Below are positions 24,751 through 41,524 of a DNA stretch of 64,000 bases, piece by piece (position 1 is the stretch's first letter; each line of letters opens with the position of its first letter). The DNA lies in the NCBI RefSeq assembly GCF_008065115.1, contig NZ_CP042913.1:1400338-1464337 (forward strand), written 5' to 3'. This DNA is from Bythopirellula goksoeyrii. GTDB lineage: Bacteria > Planctomycetota > Planctomycetia > Pirellulales > Lacipirellulaceae. The notes below the pieces were generated by a model. It did no database searches. It saw nothing but the letters and a program-made list of their open reading frames with translations, and was not told where the DNA came from. The translations under genes and the position numbers were made by a program.

Positions 24751-25152
24751 TAGAACACACCTCGCTTCAAGAAAAGGGAAAGTAAACTCCGAGATCAAAA
24801 GTGATCACAACAAAAAAGTCAAGATAAAGTGATTTCCTTAAAACTTAAGGATTCGACTCACAGAACGTACTCCACGCAATACTCACAAGATGTCGTTTTG
24901 CTCACGACTTCCCACGTGCATCTCTTTCCCATATTTCCATGCGATGCAAGCTCCAACAAGGAGATTGTTTGTCTGGCAGGGTAATGTATTTTTGCGGCAA
25001 ATGAAGAAAATACAGGCGTTTTGAGAGCTGGGGCAGTCTCGTTGAGGGCGAATCAGAATCAGATAGGTCAATAAAATCGGAGAATATCACCACAAGAGCT
25101 TGGCGTCAGCACATGAAGATAGCTGCGATTCGCCTCAATTGAACCAGTCCCG
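24751..25152. other. Intergenic, no gene seen
   Basis: About 400 AT-rich bases between two leftward genes. They must hold the promoter of the PEP-CTERM gene and the 3' trailer of the sialidase-like gene. Short frames here have no coding character, and I see no strong hairpin or repeat. Confidence 0.5.
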
Positions 25153-26865
25153 TCAATACCAAGCCAACAATCGAAAGTCCTTAATCCGATGAAATGTTGA
25201 TAAATCAGCATCGTGGAAGTGACCTGATTCTCGTGCCGTTCGCGAAAGGATGACGATGTCATCTCCATCAATTAGCATGGAGGGATACATAAACGATTGG
25301 CCAGGGGTAGGTGCAAAAGCCACGCAGCCGGCAGGCAACCAATTTAGCCCATCATGGCCAAAGTAAAGCATGAGATACCTTCTGTCCGGAGCTTCTTCTC
25401 CCAAAGGTCCCATGGCTAGGTTACATGCCATCCAGAAAAGATTCGTCTTTGAATCGTGAAGAATGGCGAACTTGCTTTGCGCACCCGGCCAAGGATAATG
25501 TTGATCATACGATAGAGTGAGTTGACCATTTTTGTCCTCTAGATCAAATAAGGTTGCGATTGCAGGTGTTCCTCCTGGATTTGGGTTCACTCGAGCCGCG
25601 ATGCGAATTTGATCGTCGACGAGCATTAGGTTTCCTTCAAGATTCCAGTCGCGAAAGCGACTTTTCTCTTTCTGCGAAGCATAGCGTTTTGTACCAGTGG
25701 GACGAAACTCTGGCGGCGTCATCACAGGTTCGAGAAAATTTGAGACCCTCCAAGCTTTAGGATCAAGGAGATCCATAGATAGATCTCCAGCGATTGCCAC
25801 GGTGCCCTGATGATTCTTGTCGAGAACCCAGTAGAGATTTTCATCTTTTTCGACGAAGTTTGTTTGACAGTTCCAAAAAGGACCTTCCATGACTTTAACA
25901 GCTTCGGTCCAGCTCTCACCGTTGTCACTGCTACACATATAATAAACATCTTGATGTTGCTTCGGTTGGGTAAATAAATAGAGCTTGTCTTGTGCCAAGA
26001 ATGGAGTTGCTTCGGCGTACGGCAGATCGGGCATTCGCTCCCAAGTCTTACCTCCATTTTTGCTCTTGGTGACTATAATATATCCACCTTCTTTTTTTCC
26101 TACCCGTGAGGGACGTTTCCAACAAGGACTGAACGCGATGAATTCACCATTAGGAAGCTGAATAAACCCTGGGTCGTGGATAAAGTATCTGAGGCTGGGT
26201 ACTTCGGCGGCGATGGTATAGTGCTGTGCCAGCGGAGGATCAAATGGTGAACCTTGACGTCTGGAAACTGCTCCAACACTTCCAGAGATCATAGGAGTTT
26301 CCGCAATGATAATGCACCACTTTCCCTTGCTGATGGGTACTGGTTGCGTTTCACTGCTGGGATGCGACTTGAGGACTACCTTAGGCGAAGGTAAATCAAT
26401 TCGCTCGTCCTTTTCTACATGTTTTGCATATACATTGCAGAGTAGACCATCCCATTGCTCGCCAAAGGGGGCGAATTCAGCGATTCCTTTGACTAAACGA
26501 AATCCACGCCTCTCCAGTTCAGGTACTTGGCTGAACGATTGCAAACGCCTTATCGGGGTAATGGCATAAACCAGTCCCGGTTTTGTGCAAACCTTGCGTG
26601 TTCCGATGAAATTGGTGCGGATAAAATCTTTACCTATGAGTTCTTTCGGGAGATCGGTAAAGACAAAATCTGTATCAAGGAATGCCATTACACCAAGCTG
26701 AAGACTTTCTGTTTTCCACTCGAGTGGCAATAGCTCAGCAAAGTTATCATCTTGCAAGTCGTTAGCCTGAACAGTGACCGGAATGCCTATGAAAGCTATC
26801 GAGGCAACTAGTACTGATAGCTCGCGTACGAAGTAGAGGCGTGTACGTTTCGAGAAAGCTAACAT
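25153..26865 (-). CDS. Sialidase-like (BNR/Asp-box) propeller protein, secreted
   Basis: A ~570-residue protein. The ATG at 26865 is preferred because it gives a signal peptide (VLVASIAFIGIPVTVQA); the longer frame to 26985 adds an unlikely polar leader. Two Asp-box motifs, SKNGGKTW and SSDNGESW, mark a sialidase/BNR six-bladed propeller (residues ~230-560). The first ~200 residues form a separate domain with no family I know. Other blocks are FIHDPGFIQLPNGEFIAFSP and MYPSMLIDGDDIVILSRTAR. Asp-boxes stabilise the fold but do not prove sialidase activity; many planctomycetal homologues act on other sugars or are uncharacterised. Motif copy C lies in the divergent region 335 bases upstream. It is a neighbour of the dipeptide epimerase. 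Confidence 0.75.
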   Translation of the reverse strand: MLAFSKRTRLYFVRELSVLVASIAFIGIPVTVQANDLQDDNFAELLPLEWKTESLQLGVMAFLDTDFVFTDLPKELIGKDFIRTNFIGTRKVCTKPGLVYAITPIRRLQSFSQVPELERRGFRLVKGIAEFAPFGEQWDGLLCNVYAKHVEKDERIDLPSPKVVLKSHPSSETQPVPISKGKWCIIIAETPMISGSVGAVSRRQGSPFDPPLAQHYTIAAEVPSLRYFIHDPGFIQLPNGEFIAFSPCWKRPSRVGKKEGGYIIVTKSKNGGKTWERMPDLPYAEATPFLAQDKLYLFTQPKQHQDVYYMCSSDNGESWTEAVKVMEGPFWNCQTNFVEKDENLYWVLDKNHQGTVAIAGDLSMDLLDPKAWRVSNFLEPVMTPPEFRPTGTKRYASQKEKSRFRDWNLEGNLMLVDDQIRIAARVNPNPGGTPAIATLFDLEDKNGQLTLSYDQHYPWPGAQSKFAILHDSKTNLFWMACNLAMGPLGEEAPDRRYLMLYFGHDGLNWLPAGCVAFAPTPGQSFMYPSMLIDGDDIVILSRTARESGHFHDADLSTFHRIKDFRLLAWY

Positions 26866-27347
26866 TGAACTCTTACTGACTGTGATCGTGCAAAGGGCAC
26901 AAGGCTGCTGGGTTAAGTGCAGTCCACTCAAGGAGGAAGGATTATAAGTTGAAGGGGCCTCAACAGAGCCTGTCCCAGCGTTCATGCTCGGCCCGACTCA
27001 ACCGACATTTCCCCACAGTCTTTCACGCAAGGTTTTCACTAACAAGGAGTATTTGCATCTCTTACAGGGAGAGTTTTTAGCTAATCACATGCTAGATACT
27101 GCCTGCTTAGTTATCCTTATGGGACTAAGTATCTGGACGCATGAATCTTAAGTTTTTATTTGAGTGTATGAGATCGCAAGTCATTTTCGCTCATGGGAGT
27201 TGCAAGTAGTTACAATACCTGCAACTTGAGAGATCAAGCCTTTCCGTTCAAGTCGGGCGAGACCGCTTGGACCAACTGCGAGTTATTCGGAGAAAAGGCA
27301 TAAGTTCACATTCGGCCACTAATTGGTTGTCGAGCGGAGATATTAGC
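26866..27347. other. Divergent regulatory region, sialidase-like / dipeptide epimerase
   Basis: About 480 bases with motif copy C at 27200-27215 and no convincing gene. GCGGAGATATTAGC directly before 27348 is the ribosome site of the epimerase. The region could serve both divergent genes. Confidence 0.55.
27200..27215. promoter_or_regulatory. 16-bp palindromic operator (motif copy C)
   Basis: TTGCAAGTAGTTACAA matches the reverse complement of the 22087 copy at 14 of 16 places. It lies 132 bases before the epimerase start and 334 bases before the divergent sialidase-like gene, on the island side of tRNA-Lys. Confidence 0.55.
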
Positions 27348-28367
27348 ATGAAACTACTACTTCACGAAATATCAGTCCCTCTTCTCAAGCCGTTTAAGAT
27401 CTCTCGGGGCACTGTGAATGAACAAACAATCTTGATTGTCGAACTCCAGAAAGACGGCCAGAGTGGGTTCGGCGAAGTCGGTGAAAACGGCTATTACGGC
27501 CATTCACTGGAAACCATGACAGAATCCATTCTTCGTGTCACATCTCGCGTAGAATCAACTTGCCTGTCCTCGGGCGATGCCGTTTGGGAAGCTGTCAATG
27601 AGCAGCTTTCCTCTGACCGATTTGCACTCTCTGCCTTGGATATGGCTGCACAAGATCTTTTTGCTAAACTCCACGGTCGCCCCTGTTATCAAGAATGGGG
27701 TTTGCAATGGACGAGCTTACCTGAATCCAGTTTTACAATCAGTATCGGCACTCCGGAGGAAATGGTACTCCAACTCAAGGAACAACCTGGTTGGAGGATC
27801 TACAAAATCAAACTAGGGGTGCCTGACGATATTGAGATCGTTCGTGCTTTGCGACTCCATACGGATGCGGTGCTGCGTGTCGACGCTAATTGTGCATGGA
27901 CTGTACAAGAAGCTATCACAAAATCCATCGTTCTTAAAGATCTCGGTGTCGAGTTTATCGAGCAACCACTACCTCGGGAATCAACAAAGGAAGAGCAAGA
28001 ACTGGTCTACCGAGAATCTGCATTGCCGATCATCGCCGATGAGAGTTGTTGCCTCCCTAGAGATGTCGAACGTTGTGCCGGAGCCTTTCACGGGATCAAT
28101 GTGAAATTGTGTAAATGTGGCGGGCCAACTCCCGCCCTTGCGATGCTCAAGCAAGCGCGCTCACTAGGCTTACACACAATGATAGGCTGCATGCTCGAGA
28201 CTTCAATTGGCATTTCGGCGGCTGCCCAATTACTGCCTTTGTTAGATTACGCCGATCTTGATGGAGCGATTCTTTTAGGCAATGACCCCGCAGAAGGTGT
28301 AACAATTGATAGAGGCGTCGTGTCTTTGGCGAATCGTCCTGGATGTGGCGGTCGTTTGAAGCAGTAA
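27348..28367 (+). CDS. Dipeptide epimerase (enolase superfamily, L-Ala-D/L-Glu epimerase-like)
   Basis: A 339-residue cytoplasmic enzyme of the muconate-lactonizing branch of the enolase superfamily. All catalytic landmarks are present: the KIK pair with Lys153 and Lys155, metal ligands Asp179 (RVDANCAW), Glu205 (EFIEQPL) and Asp231 (IIADES), and Lys253 (GINVKLCKCGG). GCMLETSIGISAAA near 285 is typical of dipeptide epimerases, which invert the second residue of L-Ala-D/L-Glu or related dipeptides and normally help recycle murein peptides. The ATG at 27348 has GGAG at a good distance; an upstream TTG frame start is ignored. It precedes L-serine ammonia-lyase by ~50 bases, suggesting joint catabolism of peptide-derived amino acids. 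Specificity cannot be set from sequence. Confidence 0.88.
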   Translation: MKLLLHEISVPLLKPFKISRGTVNEQTILIVELQKDGQSGFGEVGENGYYGHSLETMTESILRVTSRVESTCLSSGDAVWEAVNEQLSSDRFALSALDMAAQDLFAKLHGRPCYQEWGLQWTSLPESSFTISIGTPEEMVLQLKEQPGWRIYKIKLGVPDDIEIVRALRLHTDAVLRVDANCAWTVQEAITKSIVLKDLGVEFIEQPLPRESTKEEQELVYRESALPIIADESCCLPRDVERCAGAFHGINVKLCKCGGPTPALAMLKQARSLGLHTMIGCMLETSIGISAAAQLLPLLDYADLDGAILLGNDPAEGVTIDRGVVSLANRPGCGGRLKQ

Positions 28368-28417
28368 ACACGTGTCATCCAAACAATTTCCGAACGACAA
28401 TACAGAGGCACACTCCT

Positions 28418-29797
28418 ATGGCAATTAGTGTTCTAGATTTATTTACAATCGGTATCGGCCCCTCTAGCTCACACTCAATCGGCCCCATGCGAGCCGCTGG
28501 GAATTTCCTCGAGCGGATTCGTGATGCCGGCAAACTGGAACAATGTGGAAGAGTAGTAGTGCGCCTCTTCGGCTCACTCGCGCTGACTGGCAAGGGGCAC
28601 GGCACTGACACGGCGATACTTCTCGGACTAGAGGGTGCGATACCAGAAAAGGTGAATCCTGATGATATTGAATCTCAGATTCAATCGATCCGCACTAAAA
28701 AGAAATGTTGCTTGCCTGGAGGCCCCACGATTTCTTTTGATGAAGGAGTTGATCTGCTGTTTCTAAGAAAGGAGACATTGCCATTTCATCCGAACGGCAT
28801 GCAGTTCACAGCCTACGATTCAATTGGTGAGATTCTGATAGACTACACATGCTATTCGATTGGTGGTGGATTCGTAGTTGATGAATCTGACGCTGCCCAA
28901 GACCAGTTGTCTTCGGATAAAGCAGTGCAGCCTTTCTTATTCCGCACGGGCAATGACTTGTTGCGATTGGCTGCCGAAAACGGAAAATCCATTAGCGATA
29001 TGATGCTTGCTAATGAGAGTATCTGGCGTAGTGAAGCCGAGACTTGCTCAAACCTGCTAGATATTTGGACTGTCATGAAGCAGTGCGTTGAGCGTGGATG
29101 TCGACAAGAAGGGACGCTACCCGGCGGTCTGAAGGTTCAACGTCGAGCTGCAGAAGTGTTCCGAACTCTTTCCAACCGAGACGAGCAGAACTTCCGCAAC
29201 CCGCTTGCGGTGCTTGACTGGGTCAATCTATTTGCTCTGGCCGTTAGTGAAGAGAATGCTGCAGGCAGCCGTGTGGTAACTGCACCAACGAATGGAGCGG
29301 CAGGTGTCATTCCTTCAGTTTTGCATTACTACACTCGCTTCATACCCGAGGCGAACGATGATGGGGTGATTCGATTCCTGCTTACTGCTGGAGCCATCGG
29401 AATACTGTATAAGGTCAACGCTTCTATCTCAGGTGCGGAGGTTGGCTGTCAGGGGGAGATTGGGGTAGCATGCTCAATGGCAGCAGGTGCTCTCACTGAG
29501 GTATTGGGCGGCACGGTTCCTCAAGTGGAAATGGCAGCGGAAATCGGCATGGAACACAACCTCGGATTGACTTGTGATCCGATTGGCGGACTAGTGCAAG
29601 TACCTTGCATAGAAAGATGTGCCATGGCGGCTGTCAAGGCAATAAATGCATCAACCATGGCCCTCAACAGCGACGGTTCACACCATGTCTCTTTGGATCG
29701 AGTGATTAAAACGATGCGTGAAACTGGTCGCGATATGCTCTCGAAATACAAGGAGACTTCCCGAGGTGGATTAGCAGTTGCAGTTACAGAATGCTGA
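28418..29797 (+). CDS. sdaA: L-serine ammonia-lyase, single-chain iron-sulfur type
   Basis: A 459-residue enzyme that converts L-serine to pyruvate and ammonia using an oxygen-sensitive [4Fe-4S] cluster. The N-terminal beta domain opens [20 protein letters not shown], the family hallmark. The catalytic alpha domain has [40 protein letters not shown] and [18 protein letters not shown], whose cysteines hold the cluster with the one in GCQGE. The chosen ATG has AGAGG about 10 bases upstream; the longer frame overlaps the epimerase stop. The residue after the last cluster block is Cys where many homologues have Asn (PCIERN), a small difference. It is likely co-transcribed with the epimerase, so serine from peptides would be drawn into central metabolism. 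Confidence 0.93.
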
Positions 29798-29963: not shown

Positions 29964-31148
29964 CTAGCTTTGCACTTTGGCTCTTGCTCGTACGAATTGT
30001 TCTACTGCAAACTGCAAATCGTTTTCGCTATGTGCAGCAGAGACTTGTATTCGAATTCGGGCCTTTCCTTTCGGTACGACTGGGTATGAGAACCCTATTA
30101 CGTAGACCCCCAGGTTTAGAAGCTCAGTTGCCATTTGAGTCGCCAGCTTGGCGTCACCAAGCATTATCGGAATGATCGGATGCTGACCGGATAGTATATC
30201 AAAGCCTCGCTTGGCCATCTCCGAGCGAAACAGATTGGTGTTATTTCTTAGTTTTTCACGGAGTTGATTTGAGCAACCTGCGATTTCCAACGCTTTGATA
30301 GCACCACCTACGACAGGTGGAGCAACGCTGTTTGAGAAAAGATAGGGCCGGGATCGTTGACGCAAGAACTCAATGATTTCTCGTTTTCCACTAGTGTAGC
30401 CACCGCTAGCTCCCCCGAGGGCCTTACCCAGAGTACCAGTTGTGATGTCGATGCGATCCACAACTCCGCAGTGTTCGTGCGTTCCGCGCCCGTTCGGACC
30501 CCAAAAACCCACCGCGTGGCAGTCATCAAAATGAACCAGAGCGTTAAACTCGTCGGCTAGTTCACAGATATGATCTAGCTTGGCGATACTGCCATCCATG
30601 GAGAATACCCCATCAGTGGTGATGAGCTTGGTACGCGCGCCAATTGCATCGGCTGCTTGAAGTTGCTCGCGCAGGTCCTGCATGTTACCTGTCAGATATC
30701 GAAAACGCCTCGCTTTACATAGCCGCACACCATCAATTATCGAAGCATGATTGAGTTCGTCACTAATGATCGCATCTTCGTCGGTGAGTAACGTCTCAAA
30801 TAACCCAGCATTAGCATCGAAACATGAGGAATACAGAATGGTATCTTGTGTGCCAAGGAACTGGCTAAGTGATTTCTCCAATTCTTCATGGCATGATTGT
30901 GTGCCACAAATAAAGCGTACCGAAGCTAGGCCGTATCCCCATCTATCAAGTGCCTCATGTGCCGCCTTTACGACTTCAGGATGATTTGCCAATCCTAAAT
31001 AATTGTTTGCACAGAGATTCAACTTTTCACCAGCAGTAACTTGAACTCGCGCGTTCTGCGCCGACCTCAGGTGACGTTCTTCCTTATAGAGGCCTGCTTT
31101 GCGAGTTTCAGCCAGTTGCAATTCGATTCGTTCTATAAAAGTACTCAT
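29964..31148 (-). CDS. kbl: Glycine C-acetyltransferase (2-amino-3-ketobutyrate CoA ligase)
   Basis: A 394-residue PLP enzyme of the alpha-oxoamine synthase family. It cleaves 2-amino-3-ketobutyrate with CoA to glycine and acetyl-CoA, the second step of threonine breakdown. The match to Kbl is close along its length: [16 protein letters not shown] near residue 45, [19 protein letters not shown] near 108, [20 protein letters not shown] near 204 with the PLP-stacking His, and [15 protein letters not shown] with Lys242 as the PLP-binding residue. The start lies 9 bases after the stop of tdh on the same strand, so the pair is a standard tdh-kbl operon. It is convergent with the serine ammonia-lyase gene. 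A second, more divergent paralogue lies at 36118-37260. Confidence 0.95.
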
Positions 31149-31157
31149 GTAATATCC

Positions 31158-32186
31158 CTATGAAGTCCAGTCGAGAACGACTTTTCCCGACTCTCCAGCT
31201 CGCATCGCCTCGAAGCCCGTTTCGTACTCAGTGTAGTGCAAGCGATGAGTAATGACGGGTTGAATATCGAGTCCACTTTGAATCATTACTGTCATTTTGT
31301 ACCAGGTTTCATACATTTCACGGCCATATATGCCTTTTATGGTGAGCATGTTGAATACAACCTGATTCCAGTCAATAGCCGTATCTTCTTCGGGAATTCC
31401 TAGTAACGCGATCTTTCCCCCATGACACATGTTCGAGAGAATATCGCAAAATGCGGAAGAATTGCCTGACATCTCTAGTCCTACGTCAAATCCCTCGTGC
31501 ATATCGAGCTCTCGTTGTACTTCGGTTAGCATTGTTGATCGAACGTCGACGGCCCGACTGACACCCATCTTTGTCGCCAACTCCAATCGATATGAATTTA
31601 CATCCGTAATCACTACATGTCGCGCACCAGCATGCCTTACAATGGCTGCTGCCATGATCCCAATTGGCCCGGCTCCGGTGATGATCACGTCTTCGCCCAG
31701 CACTGGGAACGATAGGGCAGTATGGACTGCGTTCCCAAACGGATCGAAGATCGATGCAATTTCGAGATTGACTCCTTCTGCGTGATGCCAAACATTGGTC
31801 ATTGGCAAGCTGATGTACTCACAAAATGCTCCGGCGCGTGTGACCCCAACGCCCTGTGTATCCCTGCAAAGATGCCTTCGCCCTGCCATGCAATTACGAC
31901 AGCGTCCACAAACAACGTGCCCTTCGCCGCTGACGACATCCCCAGAATGAAAATCTTTGACGTTTGCACCGACCTCAACGATCTCTCCAACAAACTCATG
32001 CCCGACAACTAAACCAACCGGTACTGTTTGTTGAGCCCATTTATCCCAGTTATATATGTGCAGGTCAGTACCGCAGATGCCCGTTTTCTGAACACGGATT
32101 AGCACATCGTTTATGCCAATTTTCGGTTCAGGGACGTCAACAAGCCATAGTCCAGCCTCTGTTTTCCGTTTGACGAGAGCTTTCAT
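31158..32186 (-). CDS. tdh: L-threonine 3-dehydrogenase
   Basis: A 342-residue zinc-dependent medium-chain dehydrogenase that oxidises L-threonine to 2-amino-3-ketobutyrate with NAD. The catalytic zinc region has [15 protein letters not shown] (Cys38) and [10 protein letters not shown] (His63, Glu64). The structural zinc cysteines Cys93, Cys96, Cys99 and Cys107 are all present in [19 protein letters not shown]. The Rossmann segment is [21 protein letters not shown] chose the ATG at 32186 because residues before it in the longer frame are not part of the family. No strong ribosome site is visible before it. It sits first in the tdh-kbl pair. A 9-bp inverted repeat lies in the upstream region. 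Confidence 0.95.
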
Positions 32187-32580
32187 ATTAATAATGAGGT
32201 AAATCGAAGTGTGATACAACCTGACACAATATCTCAGCAGATGATCATCCACTTCGATAACAAACGCTTAGGTAATCTACATGTCCCCTAAATCAGTTTC
32301 AATTACTAGCAACAATTGTCAACGAACTGCAAGCGTTAGCATCGGATTAAATTGCAAAAGAAAAAGTATCAAGAAGTGGTTTCCGTATTCCTGAAAACTC
32401 GTCCGAATAGGTAGTGTCTGTCAAGACGCGCACCTTCGTTTCTAGGGTTAACTCTGTTGGTAGGGCCACCCCCAACTCCCTAGCAGCGTAGCTGCAATGG
32501 TGCGCTTGGGCGGGCGCGCCCGTCAAAAGTAGGCCACCTCATTGGTTCCAGTAGTGGCAGTAGTTTGTGTGTCCATGTTC
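32187..32580. other. Intergenic region between tdh and truncated gene; repeat arms and mobile-element-like debris
   Basis: ATCGAAGTG (32203-32211) and CACTTCGAT (32250-32258) form perfect 9-bp arms with a 38-base spacer just upstream of tdh, a possible operator pair or leader hairpin. From about 32410 the sequence becomes GC-richer and has an insertion-element-end look (GGCCACCTCATTGG, GGGCGCGCCCG palindrome at 32513-32523). No intact gene is present. Confidence 0.4.
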
Positions 32581-33057
32581 TTAGGGAGTTCTTGCTTGTG
32601 TCAGCATTATCACTTCCTTTGCTCCAGGATTTTCTTTTAGTAACGACTTGGGGAGCATGACGCCACCGAAGGAATAGGCGTCGGCATGTATACCTTCTTG
32701 GTGACATTGCTCTGCGAACAGTGTCGTATCAGTCATCAGATCCGCTTCCAACTCCAATTCTCCTCCATTGCAGCAGTGCATTATGATAGAATTGACTCCT
32801 AAGGCCTTGAGCCATTGGATCATTTCTAGACTTTGTCCTAGCTCCCAGAAAGACTTTTGCTCGTCCGTAGGGAAATACCCCGAACTGGCATCACGTCGAA
32901 CTCGGAAGGGCAACGGTTCCCAACTGCCAGCCATCACCAAGCCTTCACTTGAAAGCCAATCTGGCCTCTTGTTTCCGTTTAAGATGAACTGCTCCGCAAG
33001 ACAAGAGTTAAAGAAACCCAACAGCAATATTGTGGATATTGCGAAATACGTACACAT
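32581..33057 (-). pseudogene. Truncated secreted protein, N-terminal part only
   Basis: A 158-residue frame with a clean signal peptide (MCTYFAISTILLLGFFNSCLA). The body (SGYFPTDEQKSFWELGQSLE, LKALGVNSIIMHCCNGGELE, EGIHADAYSFGGVMLPKSLL) has the beta/alpha rhythm of the first strands of a TIM-barrel hydrolase. It then stops after VIMLTQARTP, far too short for a barrel. Downstream DNA switches to GC-rich element-like sequence, so the gene was most likely cut by an insertion or deletion near 32.6 kb. I do not recognise the family; a glycosidase-like protein is a guess. It reads leftward toward the tdh-kbl pair but is unlikely to matter for it now. Confidence 0.5.
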
Positions 33058-33127: not shown

Positions 33128-34315
33128 CTACACAATCTTCAGCATTAGCTCGCCAACAAGCACGCCTAAAAACGTACCAACAACATACCCCCAAATTCCG
33201 ACGAGTAAGGCGGGGACAATTAGGTTCGTCCAGCCCTTGGCGATAGCCAAAGCCACAGCCGTTGGCGGCCCTCCCAGTGTTGCACTGACACAGATCAGTA
33301 ACTCTTCCAAGTCGATCTTGAGAAGCTTTCCCAGTATCAGGGTGACCGTGAGGTTGGTTAACGCCATGATGAGGCAAAACAAGAAAAGCAGAGGAACATT
33401 CCTAAGTACCGTTAAAATGTCTGCTGGCAAACCGATCGCGAAAAGGAATACGTACAACATGAAACTACCAAGCTCATCGGCACCATTTATCTTTTCTAGC
33501 AGACGATGAAAACATGTAGCCACTAGCATCGAAAAGAAGGTAACTAGCACAAACATGTTGCCAAATATAGAAGTGGCTATAGAAGGATTGAAATTGCTCA
33601 CCACGATACGGTGTAGTTGGTGGGCGCAAGCAACGACAGACAAGGCTATTGCAAAGCATTTGGCAATATCTAGTAGACCAATTGGTTTTGGTTGCCAATG
33701 TTCCGAGGCTGTTGTTCCGATGCTTTGATCATTTGATTCTGACGAATGTGGAGCGGGATAGTAACGTCGAAACCATGAACTTCCCGCAATAGCCAAAAGA
33801 ACCAAAATCATTCCTGCCATTATAAAGTTGTCGGCAACCAACAGAGGGTTTGTGAGATTCTCACTTACGCCAAACGACTCTCGTACCGCGAAAAAATTTA
33901 CTCCTCCTCCGCTATAACTGGCTGTCATTATCCCAGCTATCTCAGCAATATGGTCGATATTTCCTTGCAAAAGCACGGTCGCTAGTGCAGCGCCGAGCAC
34001 CGTACCTAGGATGCTGATGTGGAAAGCGACGAACATCCATCCGGTTTGTTCGGCAATTTGGAACAGGTTGGCACGTAACAAGAGCAGAGGGATGGCCAAC
34101 GGAACAAGAAAGTCACCTACAAATGCATAGCTGGGGGCTTCAGTCGGCATGACACCTATATTTGAGAGCACCATAGCGAGCACCAGCGCAAGGACAGGAC
34201 CACTCAGCTTGGCAGCCCACTTGTAGGACTGCTCCAGCCAAATTGCAGTCGTTGTGCCAACAATGATTACTGCCCAGAGAGCCCATGTGTTGTCCGGACT
34301 AATGAGAGAATTCAT
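33128..34315 (-). CDS. DUF819 family membrane protein
   Basis: A 395-residue integral membrane protein with about ten to eleven hydrophobic helices, matching the DUF819 (YjcL-like) family. PVLALVLAMVLSNIGVMP near residue 38, DFLVPLAIPLLLLRANL near 68, ASYSGGGVNFFAVRESFGVS near 131 and CVSATLGGPPTAVALAIAKGW near 338 are the conserved blocks. The last two are inverted-repeat-like half signatures, as in anion or amino-acid exporters and permeases. The function of the family is unknown. It is the last gene of a leftward set with a beta-lactamase-fold hydrolase (66 bases upstream) and an oxoamine-synthase-like gene, so it may transport the substrate or product of those enzymes. That role is inferred only from position. 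Confidence 0.85.
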   Translation of the reverse strand: MNSLISPDNTWALWAVIIVGTTTAIWLEQSYKWAAKLSGPVLALVLAMVLSNIGVMPTEAPSYAFVGDFLVPLAIPLLLLRANLFQIAEQTGWMFVAFHISILGTVLGAALATVLLQGNIDHIAEIAGIMTASYSGGGVNFFAVRESFGVSENLTNPLLVADNFIMAGMILVLLAIAGSSWFRRYYPAPHSSESNDQSIGTTASEHWQPKPIGLLDIAKCFAIALSVVACAHQLHRIVVSNFNPSIATSIFGNMFVLVTFFSMLVATCFHRLLEKINGADELGSFMLYVFLFAIGLPADILTVLRNVPLLFLFCLIMALTNLTVTLILGKLLKIDLEELLICVSATLGGPPTAVALAIAKGWTNLIVPALLVGIWGYVVGTFLGVLVGELMLKIV

Positions 34316-34381
34316 AGGTATAGTGTTCTGACTAATCCAGAGACATGCGTGGTAAGAATGTACCTATCGATAGCTTTCCAG

Positions 34382-36121
34382 TTACTGCTGAGATCGTCGC
34401 TCTAATTTCATGTTTGCTAAAGTTGCTGCGTGAACCAAGCTTTCCGTGTCTTGTTCGAATACAAGGTATTCATCGGCATATAGGCCTTCGGGCATTTTGA
34501 AAACAGTTGCAGTTACAGGTGTCAGGCGGTAATCAACTTCGTTTTCCGTCATCGCATAAAGGTGACCATGGTGTGCAGAGATTACTAAGGGAATGAATTC
34601 AGGCCCATAACTTCCCAAGTAGTTATTCCACTTCTTCGGGATTGAAGTCGGTATCGATGGGACCTTAGTAAAATCCTGATCGAGAGCACGAAATCCAATG
34701 ACCTTGTTCGATTCGTCTCGCTTAAACTCAAGAGTACCCCGGTTCATAATTCGTCCATCAATTTCGAACTTGAGAGGACCGATGGGGCGGACCGACATCG
34801 GCTGACCACCAATATTCGCCACGAGTTGATCACCTTTCATCTTGAGTTCGGCCCAGTGCACCGGAGACTCAAATTGGCCAATGAACGCCGCAAGCTGCTC
34901 AATTTCCATATCGATAGTAGCGGGAATATCTCGTACCGGTTCTCCGATCTTTGCCGCAAGCATTAGATCCAAAGCGGTTTCGGAAATTCGCTTTACGCGG
35001 CCAGCTACGAGATCTGAATTGGTAAAAACTACAACGGCAATCCGTGGCTTTGGCAGCACAACGAGGGACGCACTGAACCCGTAGACGGCACCCGTGTGTT
35101 GAATCGTGCGATACCTGCCGTGCTTCCCTGCGAAGAATCCTAGACCAAAACCGGTGTCATTTTCTGTCAGCTGGGGAATCGACATCTGTGCGAGAGTTTC
35201 AGACTGGACGATTCTTGCTTTTGGCACAGTGCCTCCCGCCAGCAACATTTTGGCGAAATGGGCCATATCGTTCACAGTAGAATAAAGATTGCCGGCTGGA
35301 ATAGTACCCAGTTCAAACTTCGGCGCCACGCATTCAAAGAAACCACCTTTTCCATCGGCTACACGCATATAACCTGTTGCCAGCTTATCGCGAATCCGAT
35401 CATCGACACGAAAGCTTGAATGGTTCATGCCAATTGGATCGAGAAGTTTCTCTCTTAGACACTGTTCATAGGAGCATTCACTAGTTTTGGCTACAGCCTG
35501 ACCGACTACCGTGGCACCAATATTCGAGTAGCGTGTTTTCGTGTTCGGAGGATTTACCAAAACGCACGATTCGAGACTAGCTATACTCTCCTCGATACTA
35601 GGCTCTGAGTCGTCAAAGTAGCTACCTACAGGCGACTCTCGCACCAGACCTGAGCGATGGCACATAAATTGGCGCAAAGTGACAGGAGAGGCGTTTTCAA
35701 ACGGTACTACAATGCGAAACCCAGGCAGAGCTTGCTGTAGAGGTACATCAAGATCAAGCTTGTCTTGCTCTACTAGTTGCATGGCGGCAAGGGCGGTAAA
35801 TACTTTTGAAATCGATCCAACCCGATAAACCGTATCATCGGTAGCCGGCACCTGCTGCTGCTTATCCGCATAGCCGTAGCCTGCCGATAACACGATTCGC
35901 TGACCGTCAATCACCGCAACCGAAACTCCCGTTAGTATCCCTCTCTGCAATTCGTCAGCAATCTCCTTCTCCAGTTGAGATATAGCTGCCCCGTAATCGA
36001 AGCCAGTTAATTCGGCAGGATGCTGGATTTCAGCGATAGTAGGGTTGGTGAATAAAGCAGTAGACATTGCAGTGATAGTCAGACTACGTAAACACGTCAG
36101 CAGATTGTGAGTATTAATCAT
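34382..36121 (-). CDS. Serine hydrolase, beta-lactamase/D-peptidase fold, secreted
   Basis: A 579-residue protein with a probable signal sequence in the first 31 residues. The class C beta-lactamase / DD-peptidase fold spans ~45-380 with all three motifs: SISK (Ser103, Lys106) in VGSISKVFTALAAMQL, YSN (Tyr198-Asn200) in KTRYSNIGATVVG, and HTG in IQHTGAVYGFSASLVV. The C-terminal ~200 residues form one or two small beta-barrel domains, an arrangement like that of D-aminopeptidases. It probably cleaves a peptide, D-amino-acid amide or ester in the periplasm. Its ATG overlaps the stop of the upstream oxoamine-synthase-like gene by four bases (ATGA), so the two are translationally coupled. True beta-lactamase activity is unlikely. 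Confidence 0.85.
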   Translation of the reverse strand: MINTHNLLTCLRSLTITAMSTALFTNPTIAEIQHPAELTGFDYGAAISQLEKEIADELQRGILTGVSVAVIDGQRIVLSAGYGYADKQQQVPATDDTVYRVGSISKVFTALAAMQLVEQDKLDLDVPLQQALPGFRIVVPFENASPVTLRQFMCHRSGLVRESPVGSYFDDSEPSIEESIASLESCVLVNPPNTKTRYSNIGATVVGQAVAKTSECSYEQCLREKLLDPIGMNHSSFRVDDRIRDKLATGYMRVADGKGGFFECVAPKFELGTIPAGNLYSTVNDMAHFAKMLLAGGTVPKARIVQSETLAQMSIPQLTENDTGFGLGFFAGKHGRYRTIQHTGAVYGFSASLVVLPKPRIAVVVFTNSDLVAGRVKRISETALDLMLAAKIGEPVRDIPATIDMEIEQLAAFIGQFESPVHWAELKMKGDQLVANIGGQPMSVRPIGPLKFEIDGRIMNRGTLEFKRDESNKVIGFRALDQDFTKVPSIPTSIPKKWNNYLGSYGPEFIPLVISAHHGHLYAMTENEVDYRLTPVTATVFKMPEGLYADEYLVFEQDTESLVHAATLANMKLERRSQQ

Positions 36122-37260
36122 AAATGTCTTCCAAATGCTTCGGTCAACTTCTTTATCATTTCTTCTGTATGCGTTGCAAATACTGCGATGCGGAGGGCTC
36201 CACGCGCACCGAGCCCAGCGTATTCAGACTTGTAGTCAATAAGAATTCCTTCCTCAGCCAATCCATGTTGAATGCGTCGCATGTTTTGTGAATCTCCGAG
36301 TTCAAGACTTACAATCGGCACAGGTGTGAGTTCGATTTCCAAGCCCAGATCGTTAAGCCCCTGCTTCAGCCGCAGTGCATTTTGCTTAACCCCAGCAACA
36401 AGGTTAGGCGTATTAGCCACAAGTTTCAAAGCCATGGCACTGGCTGCCGCGACAGGGATTGGGGGAGCACTTGCTCCGCTGTAGTAATGTGACGAACTCC
36501 TTGCACTCTCGATAAAAGTATTCGTGCCGGCAATGATACCACCATAACCCCCGAAGGCTTTACTGAGCGTGCCGACTGCAAATAACCGTGGAGAACCGGC
36601 TATGTCTTGATTAGGTGGCAATTCATTTATGCCTCGCTGTGGGATGCCGTGATGTTCGAAGGTACCACATCCTCGCTCTCCCAACACTCCAAATGCGTGA
36701 CAGTCATCCAAACAGAGCATTGCACCTTCGATATCCTCCAGGACATCTAGATATTCTTTCACGGGGGCAATGGCTCCGCTCGACGCGAACACTCCATCAC
36801 TCAACACGATCGGCACTTGGCCGGGTCGCAGGCGATCTTTCAGCAGTTCTCGTAAAGCCTCGGCCTCAAGGTGAGCGAATTGATATGTGGGAAGGTCGAA
36901 GCAGCGGCAAGCATCCACGACACTGTAATGTGAGTTCTCGTCCAGTAGAAAAACGCTTCCTGGTTTGGCAAGCACTGAGAGAACAACATGATTGCCTAAA
37001 TAACCTGACGCAAAATAGTAAGCCGCTTCACTATCCCAGAAACGAGCGGCAAGTTCCTCAACCTCTATAATAGGAGGAGCATTTCCGTAACCGGAACGCG
37101 AAGTGGCCGTGCCAAGGCCATAGGCTCGCGTAGCTTCGATTGAAGCCTGAATCAAATCTGCGTGACCATGCAAACCCAAATATCCAGTACCGCAGAAATA
37201 GAGGTACTGACAGTCATCAACTTTGGTTTCTGGGCCAGGCGGGCTTTGCATCAAATGCAT
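36118..37260 (-). CDS. Alpha-oxoamine synthase family PLP enzyme (AONS/KBL-like paralogue)
   Basis: A 380-residue fold-type I PLP enzyme related to 8-amino-7-oxononanoate synthase, glycine C-acetyltransferase and serine palmitoyltransferase. YLYFCGTGYLGLHGHADL near residue 19, LDENSHYSVVDACR near 106, CLDDCHAFGVLGERGCGTFE near 183 and VGTLSKAFGGYGG with PLP-binding Lys234 are present. The family condenses an amino acid with an acyl-CoA, or the reverse. It differs from the clear Kbl at 29964: GTGYLGL in place of the AS/NNYLGL block and HYYSGASAPPIPVAAA in place of the PYLFSNS block. No biotin genes are nearby. It is coupled to a D-peptidase-fold hydrolase and a DUF819 protein, so it may act on an amino acid freed by the hydrolase. 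Confidence 0.8.
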   Translation of the reverse strand: MHLMQSPPGPETKVDDCQYLYFCGTGYLGLHGHADLIQASIEATRAYGLGTATSRSGYGNAPPIIEVEELAARFWDSEAAYYFASGYLGNHVVLSVLAKPGSVFLLDENSHYSVVDACRCFDLPTYQFAHLEAEALRELLKDRLRPGQVPIVLSDGVFASSGAIAPVKEYLDVLEDIEGAMLCLDDCHAFGVLGERGCGTFEHHGIPQRGINELPPNQDIAGSPRLFAVGTLSKAFGGYGGIIAGTNTFIESARSSSHYYSGASAPPIPVAAASAMALKLVANTPNLVAGVKQNALRLKQGLNDLGLEIELTPVPIVSLELGDSQNMRRIQHGLAEEGILIDYKSEYAGLGARGALRIAVFATHTEEMIKKLTEAFGRHL

Positions 37261-37263
37261 TTA
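37251..37263. repeat. 13-mer inverted pair, left copy
   Basis: TCAAATGCATTTA is the exact reverse complement of the 13-mer at 37503-37515 and includes the palindrome AAATGCATTT. It spans the start codon of the oxoamine-synthase-like gene. Confidence 0.5.
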
Positions 37264-37663
37264 GACATTGCCTCGAGACGATTTTTTCCGGCGAACGCAA
37301 CAACCAAAGCAACATACCCAGATTTCCCTCAGCGCACAGGCCAGGCATAGAGGTAGCTAATCACGTTCTCATAATCTAGTAAAATCGAGTATGGCGAGAA
37401 GCTGCCGTCAGCAGACACACTTTGCCATGCAATTTTGTCTCAGACAAGGAGATTTCGTGTCTGAGTCTCTATATTTTTCATTAGCTCTTCAACCGGATTG
37501 ATTAAATGCATTTGAAAGCCAATAAGCGGACATTGCGGCCCACTGTGACTATTGATTGCCAAGAAGTGATCTGTGTGACATGCTCAAAAGTATCTGAGGC
37601 ATCGAAGTGAGTTTTCAAGTCGACAAGTGAAAAGTGGAATGAAGCCCCAACCAGAGATGCGAA
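37261..37663. other. Divergent intergenic region, oxoamine-synthase operon / deacylase fusion
   Basis: About 400 bases with no gene. An inverted 13-mer pair bounds part of it (37251-37263 and 37503-37515). No clear ribosome site precedes the leftward start; GAAGCCCCAACCAGAG precedes the rightward start. Any promoter hexamers are too weak to name. Confidence 0.45.
37503..37515. repeat. 13-mer inverted pair, right copy
   Basis: TAAATGCATTTGA, with the palindromic core AAATGCATTT, lies 149 bases before the deacylase fusion start and faces the matching copy at 37251-37263. It could be a pair of operator sites for divergent control. Confidence 0.5.
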
Positions 37664-40195
37664 ATGAAGAACGTTTCTAGACTAGTAATTATATGCTTGG
37701 CTTGCTTTCATTCGGAGCCAGTCCAGGGAGAAGGCCTCCGTGTACAGTACGACCTAGTGATCAAATCCGGTCTTATTGTCGACGGATCTGGAGCCTCACC
37801 TTTTACAGGAGATGTCGCTGTATTGGACGGTCGCATTACAGCTATTGGAATAATTGATGCGAAATCGGCTAGAGAGGTGATTGACGCCTCAGGTCTGATT
37901 ATCGCACCAGGATTCATCGACATGATGGTACAGACGGCGACTCCGATTCTAGAGAACGCTGAAGCATCGCTTGGTCTTTTAACTCAAGGTATTACAACTA
38001 TCAACGCTTGTGGGGGAAACTCAGCAGCGCCTACCGACCCGGAAATTGTGGGCCAGACTGGCTGGAGGAAGATGTCAGGTTATTTGCAAGCATTGGACCA
38101 AAAAGGGTTGCCCATCAATGTTGCCCAGACGATTGGTCACAATCAAATACGTCGCATTGTGATGGGCGAGGTGGATCGTTCGCCAACAAACAAGGATCTT
38201 CGGAAGATGCAGGATTTAGTCAAAGAGGCAATGGATTCGGGCGCAATTGGTATCTCCACGGCATTGAATTCTCCGCCAGCTATGTATGCGCAAACAGAAG
38301 AAATTGCTGCACTAGCACGTGTTGCCGGAAAATATGGCGGTGGTTACTTTACTGAGCTGCGAAGTGAAGGAGATCACTTCCTAGAAGCACTCGAAGAGGC
38401 AATCACGATTGGCAAAATCGCGGATGTGCCGGTTCACATATCGCAACTCCAAGCAACGGGCAAATCAAACTGGCACAAACTACCCCTTGCTCTCAAAAAA
38501 ATTGAATCTGCACGAGATCGAGGAGAAAAGGTTTCTGCAGACATATGTCCCTCTTGTGATAACCCTAAGAACTCTCAAAACAACGTCTTTGCAATTCAAC
38601 AAGAATACGTTTCCTTCTCCACCGGCGTGGGCTTACTAGCGTCTAAAGACATCCTGACTCATCCGCGTTCATTGGGAGCATTCCGATGTCTTTTCTCACA
38701 CTATGTACGGGATCTTGAAGTCGTTACTCTTGAGCAAGCCGTTTCACAGTCAACAGCTATAGCTTCTAGTGAGATAATGGCAAAAGATAGGGGGCACATT
38801 GCCATTGGCTCACCTGCAGACCTGATCGTCTTTGACGATGAGGCATTTCAAGAAGCCTCTAGTCTGAGCCAACCTCAAGATCCATCAAAAGGCATGAAAT
38901 ATGTGCTCGTGAATGGTGTTATGGCGCTCCGAAATGGGAAGCTAACAGGAAATCGTTCGGGAATGGTTCTACGAGGACCGGGCTATCAAGAGGAGCTGGC
39001 TCCGCAAAATATCGCGACAGGTGCTACTTGCAGTAGCTTCGCTAAGATTGATTCAATAATGAAAGAGAGCTTGGCAAAGCACCATATCCCCGGAGCATCA
39101 CTGGCAATTACGGATCAGGGGCGACTGGTTTACTCTCGAGGGTTTGGCTATGCCGATCTTGAGTCACAACAACCAGTGACACCCACCACCCTCTTTCGTA
39201 TTGCCAGCCTTGCCAAGCCAATTACTGCTGTGGCGATAATGAAGCTAGTAGAGTCGGAGCTGCTAGACCTTGACACACCTGTTTTTTCGGTCCTGAACAA
39301 CTACGAACCTTTTATCGAGCAAAATGCCGCTTACGACGTTCGACTTCGTGACATTACCGTTCGTTATCTGCTGCAGCACCGAGGCGGATGGGACAGAGAG
39401 GTTTCTTTTGATCCAATGTTTCGATCTTATCATATTGCTGCTTCGCTCGGCACTTCTTCTCCAGCCACGCATGACGAGATCATCAGGTACATGCTGGGAA
39501 AACCGCTCGACTTCAATCCAGGCGAACGTTATGCCTATTCAAACTTTGGTTACTGCCTTTTGGGTAGAGTGATTGAGAAGCTTTCAGGATGCACCTATGA
39601 AAACTATGTCAAAAAACATGTACTTGAGCCTCTGGGTATCACTGACATGGAGATCGGAAGAACAGCATTCAAGCTTCATCGTTCTGGAGAATCTCGATAT
39701 TACGATCCTCACTACGGCTACTCTGTATTTGACGATCACCTGAACGAAAAGGTACCTCAACCCTATGGCGCATGGCATCTCGAGGTAATGGACTCGCATG
39801 GAGGATGGATTGCGACAGCTGAGGACTTGCTGCGATTTGCAACTGCATTTGACCGTAAGCTACTCTCATCTGCTTCGGTGGAGCAAATGTTTGAACGTCC
39901 TCCTGGGCTTGCCGGTTGGACGGGAGACGGGAATAAGAATCAGATTTACTATGGTTTAGGTTGGCAAGTAAGGACAAATACTGCCGAGAACATTTCGTTA
40001 CAAATGCATGCTGGCTCACTTCCCGGTACGAGCACGATAGTAGTTCGCCGATCAGATGGTCGTTGCTTTGCCCTGCTTTTTAATGCTCGAGAATCACCCT
40101 TCACGTCGCAGATAAACTACGAAGTATTTCCTGCACTAAATGAGGCTATCGACGAGATTGGCACCTGGCCAACATACGACCTCTTCTGCGAATAA
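37664..40195 (+). CDS. Fusion: degenerate D-aminoacylase-like amidohydrolase domain + beta-lactamase-fold serine hydrolase
   Basis: An 843-residue protein. A short leader (first ~22 residues) precedes an amidohydrolase-like domain (~30-430) with N-acyl-D-amino-acid deacylase landmarks: DLVIKSGLIVDGSGASPFTG, VIDASGLIIAPGFID and HPRSLGAF. The metal sites are lost. The GFID-x-HxH block reads GFIDMMVQ, HMRDEGD reads ELRSEGD, the ISHLK His reads ISQLQ, and the SDG Asp block reads STG. About 100 residues between domain halves are also missing. The C-terminal domain (~455-840) is an intact class C beta-lactamase-type hydrolase with SLAK (Ser515, Lys518), YSN and HAGSLPG. Catalysis is therefore likely only in the second half. 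The likely substrate is a D-amino-acid peptide or amide. Confidence 0.82.
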   Translation: MKNVSRLVIICLACFHSEPVQGEGLRVQYDLVIKSGLIVDGSGASPFTGDVAVLDGRITAIGIIDAKSAREVIDASGLIIAPGFIDMMVQTATPILENAEASLGLLTQGITTINACGGNSAAPTDPEIVGQTGWRKMSGYLQALDQKGLPINVAQTIGHNQIRRIVMGEVDRSPTNKDLRKMQDLVKEAMDSGAIGISTALNSPPAMYAQTEEIAALARVAGKYGGGYFTELRSEGDHFLEALEEAITIGKIADVPVHISQLQATGKSNWHKLPLALKKIESARDRGEKVSADICPSCDNPKNSQNNVFAIQQEYVSFSTGVGLLASKDILTHPRSLGAFRCLFSHYVRDLEVVTLEQAVSQSTAIASSEIMAKDRGHIAIGSPADLIVFDDEAFQEASSLSQPQDPSKGMKYVLVNGVMALRNGKLTGNRSGMVLRGPGYQEELAPQNIATGATCSSFAKIDSIMKESLAKHHIPGASLAITDQGRLVYSRGFGYADLESQQPVTPTTLFRIASLAKPITAVAIMKLVESELLDLDTPVFSVLNNYEPFIEQNAAYDVRLRDITVRYLLQHRGGWDREVSFDPMFRSYHIAASLGTSSPATHDEIIRYMLGKPLDFNPGERYAYSNFGYCLLGRVIEKLSGCTYENYVKKHVLEPLGITDMEIGRTAFKLHRSGESRYYDPHYGYSVFDDHLNEKVPQPYGAWHLEVMDSHGGWIATAEDLLRFATAFDRKLLSSASVEQMFERPPGLAGWTGDGNKNQIYYGLGWQVRTNTAENISLQMHAGSLPGTSTIVVRRSDGRCFALLFNARESPFTSQINYEVFPALNEAIDEIGTWPTYDLFCE

Positions 40196-40333: not shown

Positions 40334-41524
40334 TTAGACATCCAGTTGGTCCTTCTGGTCACGATAGCTTCCCGGCGTCATACCTGTTTCTCGTTTGAAT
40401 ACAACTCCCATATACTCCGTATGCTTGTAACCTGCTAGCCGTGCTATGCAGTCTAGCGAAAGATCGGTCATCCGTAATAATTCTTTGCATCTCTCTATCT
40501 GAACATTACGGATCTCTGTTTTTGGTGAACGTCCGAAGTATTCTCTGAAACTTCGTTCTAGCCAGCTTCTAGATACTTGCAAGTGATCTAACACATCTTG
40601 AACTGTCGCACCTTCGCAGGCATGTTCACGAATATACCTCAAAGCTCGTGCAACTTCTGGATCTGGAACTGCATAACTGTCGGTTGATTGTCGAACCGCG
40701 ATGCCTAAAGAAGGAATCTCCAACATCTCTTTCTCGTTGGGAACGGGACCTTCTCGTTGCATAAGTTTGTCAAGACTTTTTGCAGCCTCGAACCCAATTC
40801 GCTCTGTGTCGAGAATAATACTGGACATTGGAGGATTTGTTAGGTTACAGATCAAATCATCATCATCGACTCCTAGTACCGCGATCTGCTCAGGAACCAA
40901 TAGTTCTGCTCTACTGCAGGCGTCCAAAACGTGATGTCCAAGAAGGTCATTCGTTGCAAGTACTGCTACGGGTTTAGGTAGCGCAGCAAGCCACTTGGCG
41001 AGGCTGTCTTGATCCTGATTCCATTTTTGTGCCTGCACTCGAAAAGGCTGCTCGTAGACCTTGCACTCGTAATTGGAAAACTCAATTCCCTCTACAAAAC
41101 CCTTTGTCCTTTGCTGGGACCAATACTGACCTTGATATTCGCAGCATGCGAAGTTTCGGAAACCTCGCTCAATAAAGTGCTGGGCTCCCAATCGCCCGAT
41201 TGCTCGATCTGCCGAACAAATGCGGTGAATGCCCATGGGAGGCAAGAAGTTACTGAGATCAATCGCCGAGATATCACGACTCTCGATGATGCTTTTTGCC
41301 TCTGGGGATAGTTGCCTGGTGATAATCCCATCTCCGTCCCACCTTGAGAGAAGTCGATTTACATCACCGGTTAACTCATGCTGTTCTATATAGATAGACC
41401 AGGGACGACTTGACAGAAGATACTTAGAGATTCCGCGTAGAATACCTCGACCGTAAGTACGGGATGTCTCTACGTCCAAAGCAACTCTAAAACCAGTTGA
41501 CATTGCGATCTTTTTTGTTTTCAA
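40334..41524 (-). CDS. XylR-type AraC-family regulator with LacI-like sensor
   Basis: A 396-residue regulator. Residues ~10-280 form a periplasmic-binding-protein-like sugar sensor of the XylR (xylose operon) kind: VALDVETSRTYGRGILRGIS, AVLATNDLLGHHVLDACSRA and VLGVDDDDLICNLTNPPMSS. Residues ~290-390 are an AraC-type double helix-turn-helix (VQDVLDHLQVSRSWLERSF and LDCIARLAGYKHTEYMGVVF). Such proteins activate pentose genes when a sugar binds. The gene is divergent from a PEP-CTERM protein that leads into a DUF1559/lipoprotein/GH127 group and the xylitol/sorbitol-type dehydrogenases, a fitting target set for pentose control. Its own operator cannot be identified by eye. A leading leucine-rich domain is absent, as expected. 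Confidence 0.9.
   Translation of the reverse strand: MKTKKIAMSTGFRVALDVETSRTYGRGILRGISKYLLSSRPWSIYIEQHELTGDVNRLLSRWDGDGIITRQLSPEAKSIIESRDISAIDLSNFLPPMGIHRICSADRAIGRLGAQHFIERGFRNFACCEYQGQYWSQQRTKGFVEGIEFSNYECKVYEQPFRVQAQKWNQDQDSLAKWLAALPKPVAVLATNDLLGHHVLDACSRAELLVPEQIAVLGVDDDDLICNLTNPPMSSIILDTERIGFEAAKSLDKLMQREGPVPNEKEMLEIPSLGIAVRQSTDSYAVPDPEVARALRYIREHACEGATVQDVLDHLQVSRSWLERSFREYFGRSPKTEIRNVQIERCKELLRMTDLSLDCIARLAGYKHTEYMGVVFKRETGMTPGSYRDQKDQLDV

Follow-up and report, generated by a model that had tools for sequence, protein, structure and literature searches.

What does an enzyme of the alpha-oxoamine synthase superfamily do among genes for D-peptide-type hydrolases, a membrane protein and a dipeptide epimerase? 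The question is raised by a gene cluster in the planctomycete Bythopirellula goksoeyrii, within a stretch of 64,000 nucleotides (the window) at positions 1,400,338 to 1,464,337 of NZ_CP042913.1, the single contig of a 6.47-Mb genome. The stop codon of the gene for a pyridoxal phosphate (PLP) enzyme and the start codon of a serine hydrolase gene overlap in the bases ATGA; a DUF819 gene begins 66 bases after the hydrolase gene, and a divergent gene encodes a second serine hydrolase joined to a deacylase-like domain (Table 1). The genes named in an initial annotation of the locus were all found at about the places it gave them, in the arrangement it described, and Pfam and NCBIfam confirm their families. 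That annotation had proposed release, import and breakdown, or acyl-coenzyme A (acyl-CoA) condensation, of an amino acid from peptides with D-residues. Recurrence of the gene unit supports the first part; condensation with acyl-CoA is doubtful because the enzyme departs from canonical oxoamine synthases at positions that these hold constant or almost so. The reading favored here combines a module for scavenging D-residue peptides with a PLP enzyme of CoA-independent chemistry, and its probability as a whole is put at about 0.4. The module by itself, scavenging peptidoglycan-type or other short L,D-peptides, is likely.

Relatives of the PLP enzyme were collected in several ways. As a single-sequence query it finds, at E 1e-60, only its own genome and one other among the 294 of the phylum, and in the other an epimerase gene adjoins that of the enzyme. 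A scan of genome contigs, from which the best 80 of 577 matches were taken, yielded five clear relatives (L017–L021; loci are numbered L and genomes G), and a plasmid search gave 14 records, six of which (H1–H6) were examined. At E 1e-88 (at least 422 bits) a profile built from 13 members picks out 11 genomes, the host's own included, from the 397 in the window's class. The 154 genomes of the class to which G249 belongs include 51 that match at E 1e-75; six of these reach at least 382 bits, a next tier at 305–343 bits is a sister group, and the remainder score at most 286 bits. The resulting set comprises 27 members, each of at least 380 bits, with duplicates removed and three pairs of near-copies retained (L013/L015, L014/L016 and L011/L021). 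Two control sets were used: 75 lower-scoring oxoamine-synthase loci among the same best 80 of 577 matches, and 18 loci of the same phylum, 5 of which match the PLP enzyme best and resemble the sister group. A Kbl locus elsewhere in the host genome (L174) stands outside these 93 controls.

Neighbors were counted within 10 kb, as open reading frames matched to reference proteins, several of them taken from the window itself; of the genes that had no such reference, family scans covered only a sample. An epimerase lies near the PLP enzyme in 13 of the 27 member loci, a beta-lactamase-fold serine hydrolase in 12 and DUF819 in 7, and at least one of the three is present in 18. SdaA and DgcN each occur in 3 of the 27. 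None of these five genes was found at any of the 75 oxoamine-synthase control loci or the 18 same-phylum controls. The XylR-type regulator, present in the window and four other member loci, is also absent from both control sets (0/75 and 0/18), a separate comparison having matched it at one non-member locus too. Dpp permeases accompany four members and M55 peptidases two. By these counts and their controls the gene arrangement is beyond chance, and the observation is more general than the window sequence alone could reveal.

The initial annotation had called for a gene-neighborhood search and would have counted a lack of co-occurrence elsewhere as refutation. The search goes against such a refutation: five further genomes of the class (L155, L160, L161, L162 and L163) have the PLP enzyme grouped with a serine hydrolase and DUF819. 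In L155 and L160, from the window's own family, the epimerase, serine hydrolase, SdaA, PLP enzyme and DUF819 genes form a row on one strand, with a second serine hydrolase divergent beside it and, in L160, DgcN in addition. L161 and L162 combine the PLP enzyme with hydrolase, epimerase and DUF819 genes, and DgcN lies a few kilobases off; L163 has the PLP enzyme, hydrolase and DUF819, and L157 the PLP enzyme and DUF819. Shorter relatives of the hydrolase half of the fusion occur in L155 and L160, where they are divergent, and on the same strand in L162. The annotation had also drawn Kbl and Tdh into the system. They are best placed outside it, because they are not conserved among the 27 loci: Tdh is near the window enzyme only, and Kbl near the window and L139 enzymes only. 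Their membership in the unit is rejected in spite of a second run in the host genome (L174, 4283000–4297000), in which DgcN, an epimerase, Tdh and Kbl follow one another.

Farther afield the distribution of the module is patchy, with pieces common to distant bacteria. The carrier differs by lineage: a Dpp-type ATP-binding cassette (ABC) transporter in Nitratireductor and Ensifer, a major facilitator superfamily (MFS) protein with a TonB receptor in Variovorax, a proton-dependent oligopeptide transporter (POT) in L159, and DUF819 here. In Ensifer adhaerens the Dpp, hydrolase, PLP enzyme and M55 genes make up one run. Enzymes of D-peptide type recur in some member loci, namely M55, M81, M14 and NlpC/P60 peptidases; L020 has the order epimerase, NlpC/P60, PLP enzyme, and one locus carries RidA and an FAD-binding oxidoreductase that may be D-amino-acid-dehydrogenase-like. 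A carrier, a hydrolase of D-peptidase fold, an epimerase and, in some loci, peptidases suggest that what the loci share is a short peptide with a D-residue.

The PLP enzyme matches 13 NCBIfam models, in every case short of the cut-off. It reaches 218.1 bits (216.5 in a second scan) with the BioF model TIGR00858, for which 426.45 are needed; 156.9 with the Kbl model TIGR01822 (cut-off 493); and 187.9 and 159.5 with the serine palmitoyltransferase (SPT) models NF047599 and NF047600 (cut-offs 500 and 640). The initial annotation had allowed that it might prove to be a standard biotin enzyme, and BioF identity is rejected by score, tree and active site alike; no gene of the host genome exceeds the BioF cut-off, the best reaching 418.5 bits. 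A tree built from 60 rows unites the 27 members with support of 100/99; next to them is the sister group of eight, supported at 99/96, and 25 canonical rows stand apart. Every fourth of the 75 control loci (19 rows) was taken into the canonical set, together with Kbl and BioF of E. coli, the window Kbl, two other genes of the host genome and one SPT fragment. The clade is thus not BioF, Kbl or SPT.

The fold and the PLP site are nevertheless those of the oxoamine-synthase superfamily (BioF, Kbl, SPT, ALAS and ThAOS). An AlphaFold2 model of the enzyme has a pLDDT of 93.9, and among solved structures its first Foldseek matches are SPT and ThAOS, at 26–29% identity and a TM score of about 0.88. 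Residues H133, D204, H207, K236, R361 and H368 (BioF numbering) are kept in all 27 members and include what we take to be the PLP lysine, the stacking histidine, the Asp/His pair and the carboxylate arginine. Unlike these, positions that are invariant or nearly so in the canonical enzymes (N47, S179 and the P-x-V-P loop) are replaced in 25 to 27 of the 27 members. N47, an asparagine in 25 of 25 canonical rows, is replaced by T (25 members), S (1) or C (1), and S179, likewise invariant there, is A or P in 25 of 27. P351, found in 24 of 25 canonical rows, is Y in every member, and V353, found in all 25, is G or D in every member. The A134 position is Y or F in 24 of 27, M180 is also replaced in most or all members, and several of these changes are common to the sister group. 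For N47, S179 and R361 we assume the roles that they have in E. coli BioF.

The stretch before the column of BioF S28 is also shorter in the clade, with at most 22 residues in 23 of the 27 members and at least 23 in all 24 canonical rows measured, member starts having been taken from the longest open frame in 18 cases, from annotation in 5, and by hand in 4 (L014, L140, L142 and L155). One member, L017, begins with a twin-arginine translocation (Tat)-type N-terminus (MTTRRAFLR...) behind AGGAGA. CoA is not expected in the periplasm. According to PMC11906848, oxoamine synthases have a conserved PATP motif within a loop that moves during catalysis, and in wild-type enzymes deprotonation at C-alpha is set up by acyl-CoA binding; the P351 and V353 positions would, as we read the alignment, belong to this motif. 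Because the PLP and carboxylate sites are intact, the acyl side is altered and one homologue is exported, the PLP enzyme most likely performs CoA-independent chemistry at C-alpha, either racemization or a retro-aldol type of cleavage, and not a Claisen condensation.

The sister clade has partners of its own. In seven of its eight loci (L143–L150) a LysA-like gene adjoins that of the PLP enzyme, the order typical of the clade being Ord, PLP enzyme, LysA, and L145 has a 2,4-diaminopentanoate dehydrogenase-like gene as well; the sister-like control loci (L192–L194, L198 and L203) have the LysA-like neighbor in five of five cases. A PLP-type diaminopimelate epimerase that replaces DapF is not favored for this clade, because all nine of the sister-clade genomes checked carry DapF (17 of 20 genomes scanned overall).

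The serine hydrolase coupled to the PLP enzyme has the motifs SISK, YSN and HTG and, judged by eye, a signal-like N-terminus, as the initial annotation had read it. With these SxxK, YSN and HxG motifs it resembles class C beta-lactamases, AmpH and D-aminopeptidase, AmpH giving the best score (117.1 bits, cut-off 266). It differs from them in falling below the cut-off of all 25 NCBIfam models listed (47 matched), those for these three families included. Its identity is 43–47% to the hydrolases of L159, L161, L162 and L163 and 33–34% to those of L155 and L160; the hydrolase in this position is therefore not always the same one. Signal-like N-termini were seen by eye in the window, L155, L159, L161 and L162 and not in L011, L012 or L016, the frames of L160 and L163 being possibly too long at this end. 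Since the signal-like start varies among loci, the hydrolase may act before or after import. In the divergent fusion the hydrolase half keeps SLAK, YSN and HAG. Its N-terminal half reads GFIDMMVQ, and the HxH that we take to be the metal motif of D-aminoacylases is absent from the segment after GFID, so that the label of pseudo-deacylase was a fair one.

DUF819 is probably the peptide importer of the window, as judged from other lineages, which have a Dpp-type ABC, MFS or POT carrier in its place. The family belongs to the CPA/AT clan, and PMC8396727 assigns DUF819 and Glt_symporter to the same CPA-reentrant fold type. PMC12671195 reports that in 75 of 128 Neisseria meningitidis genomes a DUF819 gene comes after one for an M15 metallopeptidase, an arrangement that again sets DUF819 beside a peptidase. 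The window copy is distinguished by its tie to genes of D-peptide type; the accessible parts of these two papers name no transport substrate. A second DUF819 protein of the host genome (L185, 2900000–2919000) is distant from the first (49 bits), and its gene abuts a convergent NlpC/P60 gene. Among 118 genomes of the class three have DUF819, and two of these (G000 and G473) carry the PLP enzyme; on plasmids no match was found at E 1e-15.

The window epimerase is 34% identical to E. coli YcjG and keeps K-x-K, the second lysine, the metal ligands and D-L-D. Two lysines, three metal ligands and D-x-D, which we take to define dipeptide epimerases, are present in the window protein and in 14 other homologues aligned with YcjG, and all 13 epimerases linked to the PLP enzyme keep the catalytic motifs. 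The window protein differs from YcjG and DgcA in scoring below both equivalog cut-offs (Table 1). In L155 and L160 the SdaA gene belongs to the same row as that of the PLP enzyme.

For this bacterium we infer the following course. Secreted serine hydrolases would trim the peptide outside the cytoplasm, and DUF819 would bring the trimmed product in. The enolase-type epimerase would then invert the D-residue, permitting ordinary peptidases to finish; SdaA could take serine onwards, and the PLP enzyme may act on an amino acid freed from the peptide.

Several observations weigh against this picture. In nine of the 27 member loci the epimerase, the serine hydrolase and DUF819 are all missing from the DNA available within 10 kb. 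In L140 and L142 the PLP enzyme stands beside FecCD-type importers that are not obviously peptide-related (L142 has an epimerase as well), and neither the TOBE-type ABC transporter of L018 nor the MacB-like genes of L139 are obvious peptide genes. A racemase role would be redundant in two clusters that may hold other D-amino-acid enzymes: L016 encodes an alanine racemase at a distance of about 9 kb from the PLP gene, and L012 has an oxidoreductase. The Tat signal is found in one member of 27, a sequence from a metagenome-assembled genome, and its nearest relative, L019, has none. The retained H133 and R361 would fit an oxoamine synthase equally well. The DUF819 gene of genome G520 has none of the reference genes nearby. 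Finally, the L174 row shows that a canonical Kbl can have an epimerase and DgcN as neighbors too.

A real possibility, of somewhat less than even odds, is that the PLP enzyme condenses an amino acid with an unusual acyl donor, as a genuine alpha-oxoamine synthase would, or catalyzes the opposite, thiolytic reaction in the manner of Kbl. The replaced residues would then mirror a different acyl group, and the other genes of the module would provide the amino acid. An unusual acyl donor is indeed nearly as likely as CoA-independent racemase or lyase chemistry: the enzyme shares its fold with SPT, ThAOS and Kbl, the PLP residues, stacking histidine and R361 are kept, a CoA-ligase-like gene lies near the L019 enzyme, and hydroxymethylglutaryl-CoA genes lie near that of L011. 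The changes at canonical positions, the P-x-V-P loop among them, argue the other way, as does the Tat-type member L017, and no acyl-CoA-forming gene recurs among the scanned neighbors, for which the reference set was not designed. It is unlikely that the module is instead a peptidoglycan-fed variant of the D-glutamate route, in which DgcN acetylates D-Glu and DgcA, here the window epimerase, racemizes N-acetyl-D-Glu. DgcA is the best-scoring model of that epimerase, L160, L161 and L162 have DgcN (DUF1611) in the vicinity of the PLP enzyme, and two DgcN–epimerase pairs exist elsewhere in the host genome. The window score is far below the DgcA cut-off, a shortfall that is not decisive because the epimerase beside DgcN in L174 is also below it (210.9 bits). 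DgcN is missing within 10 kb in 24 of the 27 member loci, the window included, and this route would leave the PLP enzyme without a role.

Still less probable is synthesis of a ketone pseudodipeptide in the manner of KtmB and ketomemicin, with the hydrolase conferring immunity and the transporter serving export. A Ddl-type ATP-grasp gene abuts the epimerase and PLP enzyme genes in L153, the MacB-like genes of L139 would suit export, and PMC11906848 counts KtmB, which takes part in making ketomemicin, among the oxoamine synthases; against this, the partners of the clade include importers that have binding proteins, as well as a TonB receptor and peptidases, and the L153 ligase exceeds the cut-off of a D-Ala-D-Ala ligase subfamily (295.5 bits versus 243). 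Ordinary breakdown of serine and threonine by SdaA, Tdh and Kbl, with the other neighbors present by chance, is very improbable. All three are standard enzymes above their cut-offs, but the PLP enzyme, hydrolase, DUF819 and epimerase recur without Kbl or Tdh and are absent from the controls, so that recurrence already disfavors this explanation. Scavenging of D-residue peptides thus stays the preferred reading of the module. Its fullest form is rather doubtful: an oxoamine-synthase-fold family that has given up acyl-CoA, serves as an amino-acid racemase or lyase in D-peptide scavenging, is Tat-exported in at least one lineage, and in planctomycetes works with a DUF819 importer in place of Dpp or POT carriers.

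From left to right the window holds the epimerase gene overlapping SdaA on the plus strand; Kbl, Tdh, an orphan, DUF819, the serine hydrolase and the PLP enzyme on the minus strand; the fusion on the plus strand; and the regulator on the minus strand. The orphan may be a remnant of a larger secreted protein.

Table 1. Genes of the cluster, with positions counted from the first nucleotide of the window.
Feature	Position	Strand	Family evidence
Oxoamine-synthase-like PLP enzyme, 380 amino acids	36118..37260	-	Pfam Aminotran_1_2, 118.7 bits
Serine hydrolase, beta-lactamase fold, 579 amino acids, predicted secreted	34382..36121	-	Pfam Beta-lactamase, 240.2 bits
DUF819 membrane protein, probable peptide importer	33128..34315	-	PF05684, 281.3 bits (gathering score 27)
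Deacylase-like domain (inactivated) fused to second serine hydrolase, 843 amino acids	37664..40195	+	Amidohydro_3, 68.1 bits; Beta-lactamase, 220.8 bits
Enolase, dipeptide epimerase / N-acyl-D-amino-acid racemase type	27267..28367	+	Best NCBIfam DgcA (NF042940), 220.7 bits (cut-off 400); then L-Ala-D/L-Glu epimerase (PRK15129), 166.1 bits (cut-off 343)
SdaA, L-serine ammonia-lyase; gene overlaps that of the epimerase	28343..29797	+	TIGR00720, 680.4 bits (cut-off 345.1, exceeded)
XylR-type protein, possible regulator	40334..41524	-	Pfam Peripla_BP_3 and AraC helix-turn-helix domains
Tdh, standard threonine dehydrogenase	31158..32252	-	TIGR00692, 476.7 bits (cut-off 458.35, exceeded)
Kbl, standard glycine C-acetyltransferase	29964..31148	-	TIGR01822, 624.8 bits (cut-off 493, exceeded); groups with E. 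coli Kbl in the tree
Orphan, 158 amino acids, signal-like N-terminus	32581-33057	-	No Pfam or NCBIfam family matched

L155 is the one member locus in which three further window genes, at 25153-26985, 23530-24798 and 51239-52459, have strong matches beside the cluster (891, 524 and 389 bits); the L155 counterpart of the first gives a BNR match below the cut-off. The second DgcN–epimerase pair of the host genome (L175, 4566000–4580000) is followed by a fusion of class A beta-lactamase, peptidoglycan-binding and D-Ala-D-Ala carboxypeptidase domains, and a Na+/H+ antiporter family protein and an M19 dipeptidase complete what appears to be another cluster of D-peptide type.

Searches of one open-access library returned no paper joining DUF819 with dipeptide epimerase, dipeptide epimerase with D-aminopeptidase and pyridoxal or with serine hydrolase, or DUF1611 with D-glutamate. 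Pairings of oxononanoate synthase, peptidoglycan recycling and dipeptide epimerase led only to work on alginate, and among titles and the beginnings of abstracts, oxoamine synthase with racemase or with D-amino acid gene cluster gave nothing on this cluster. The findings give DUF819 a role that can be tested. They also name a clade of enzymes whose active site suggests a reaction other than the textbook one under which databases file it, and they suggest how planctomycetes and soil bacteria may use peptides that contain D-amino acids.

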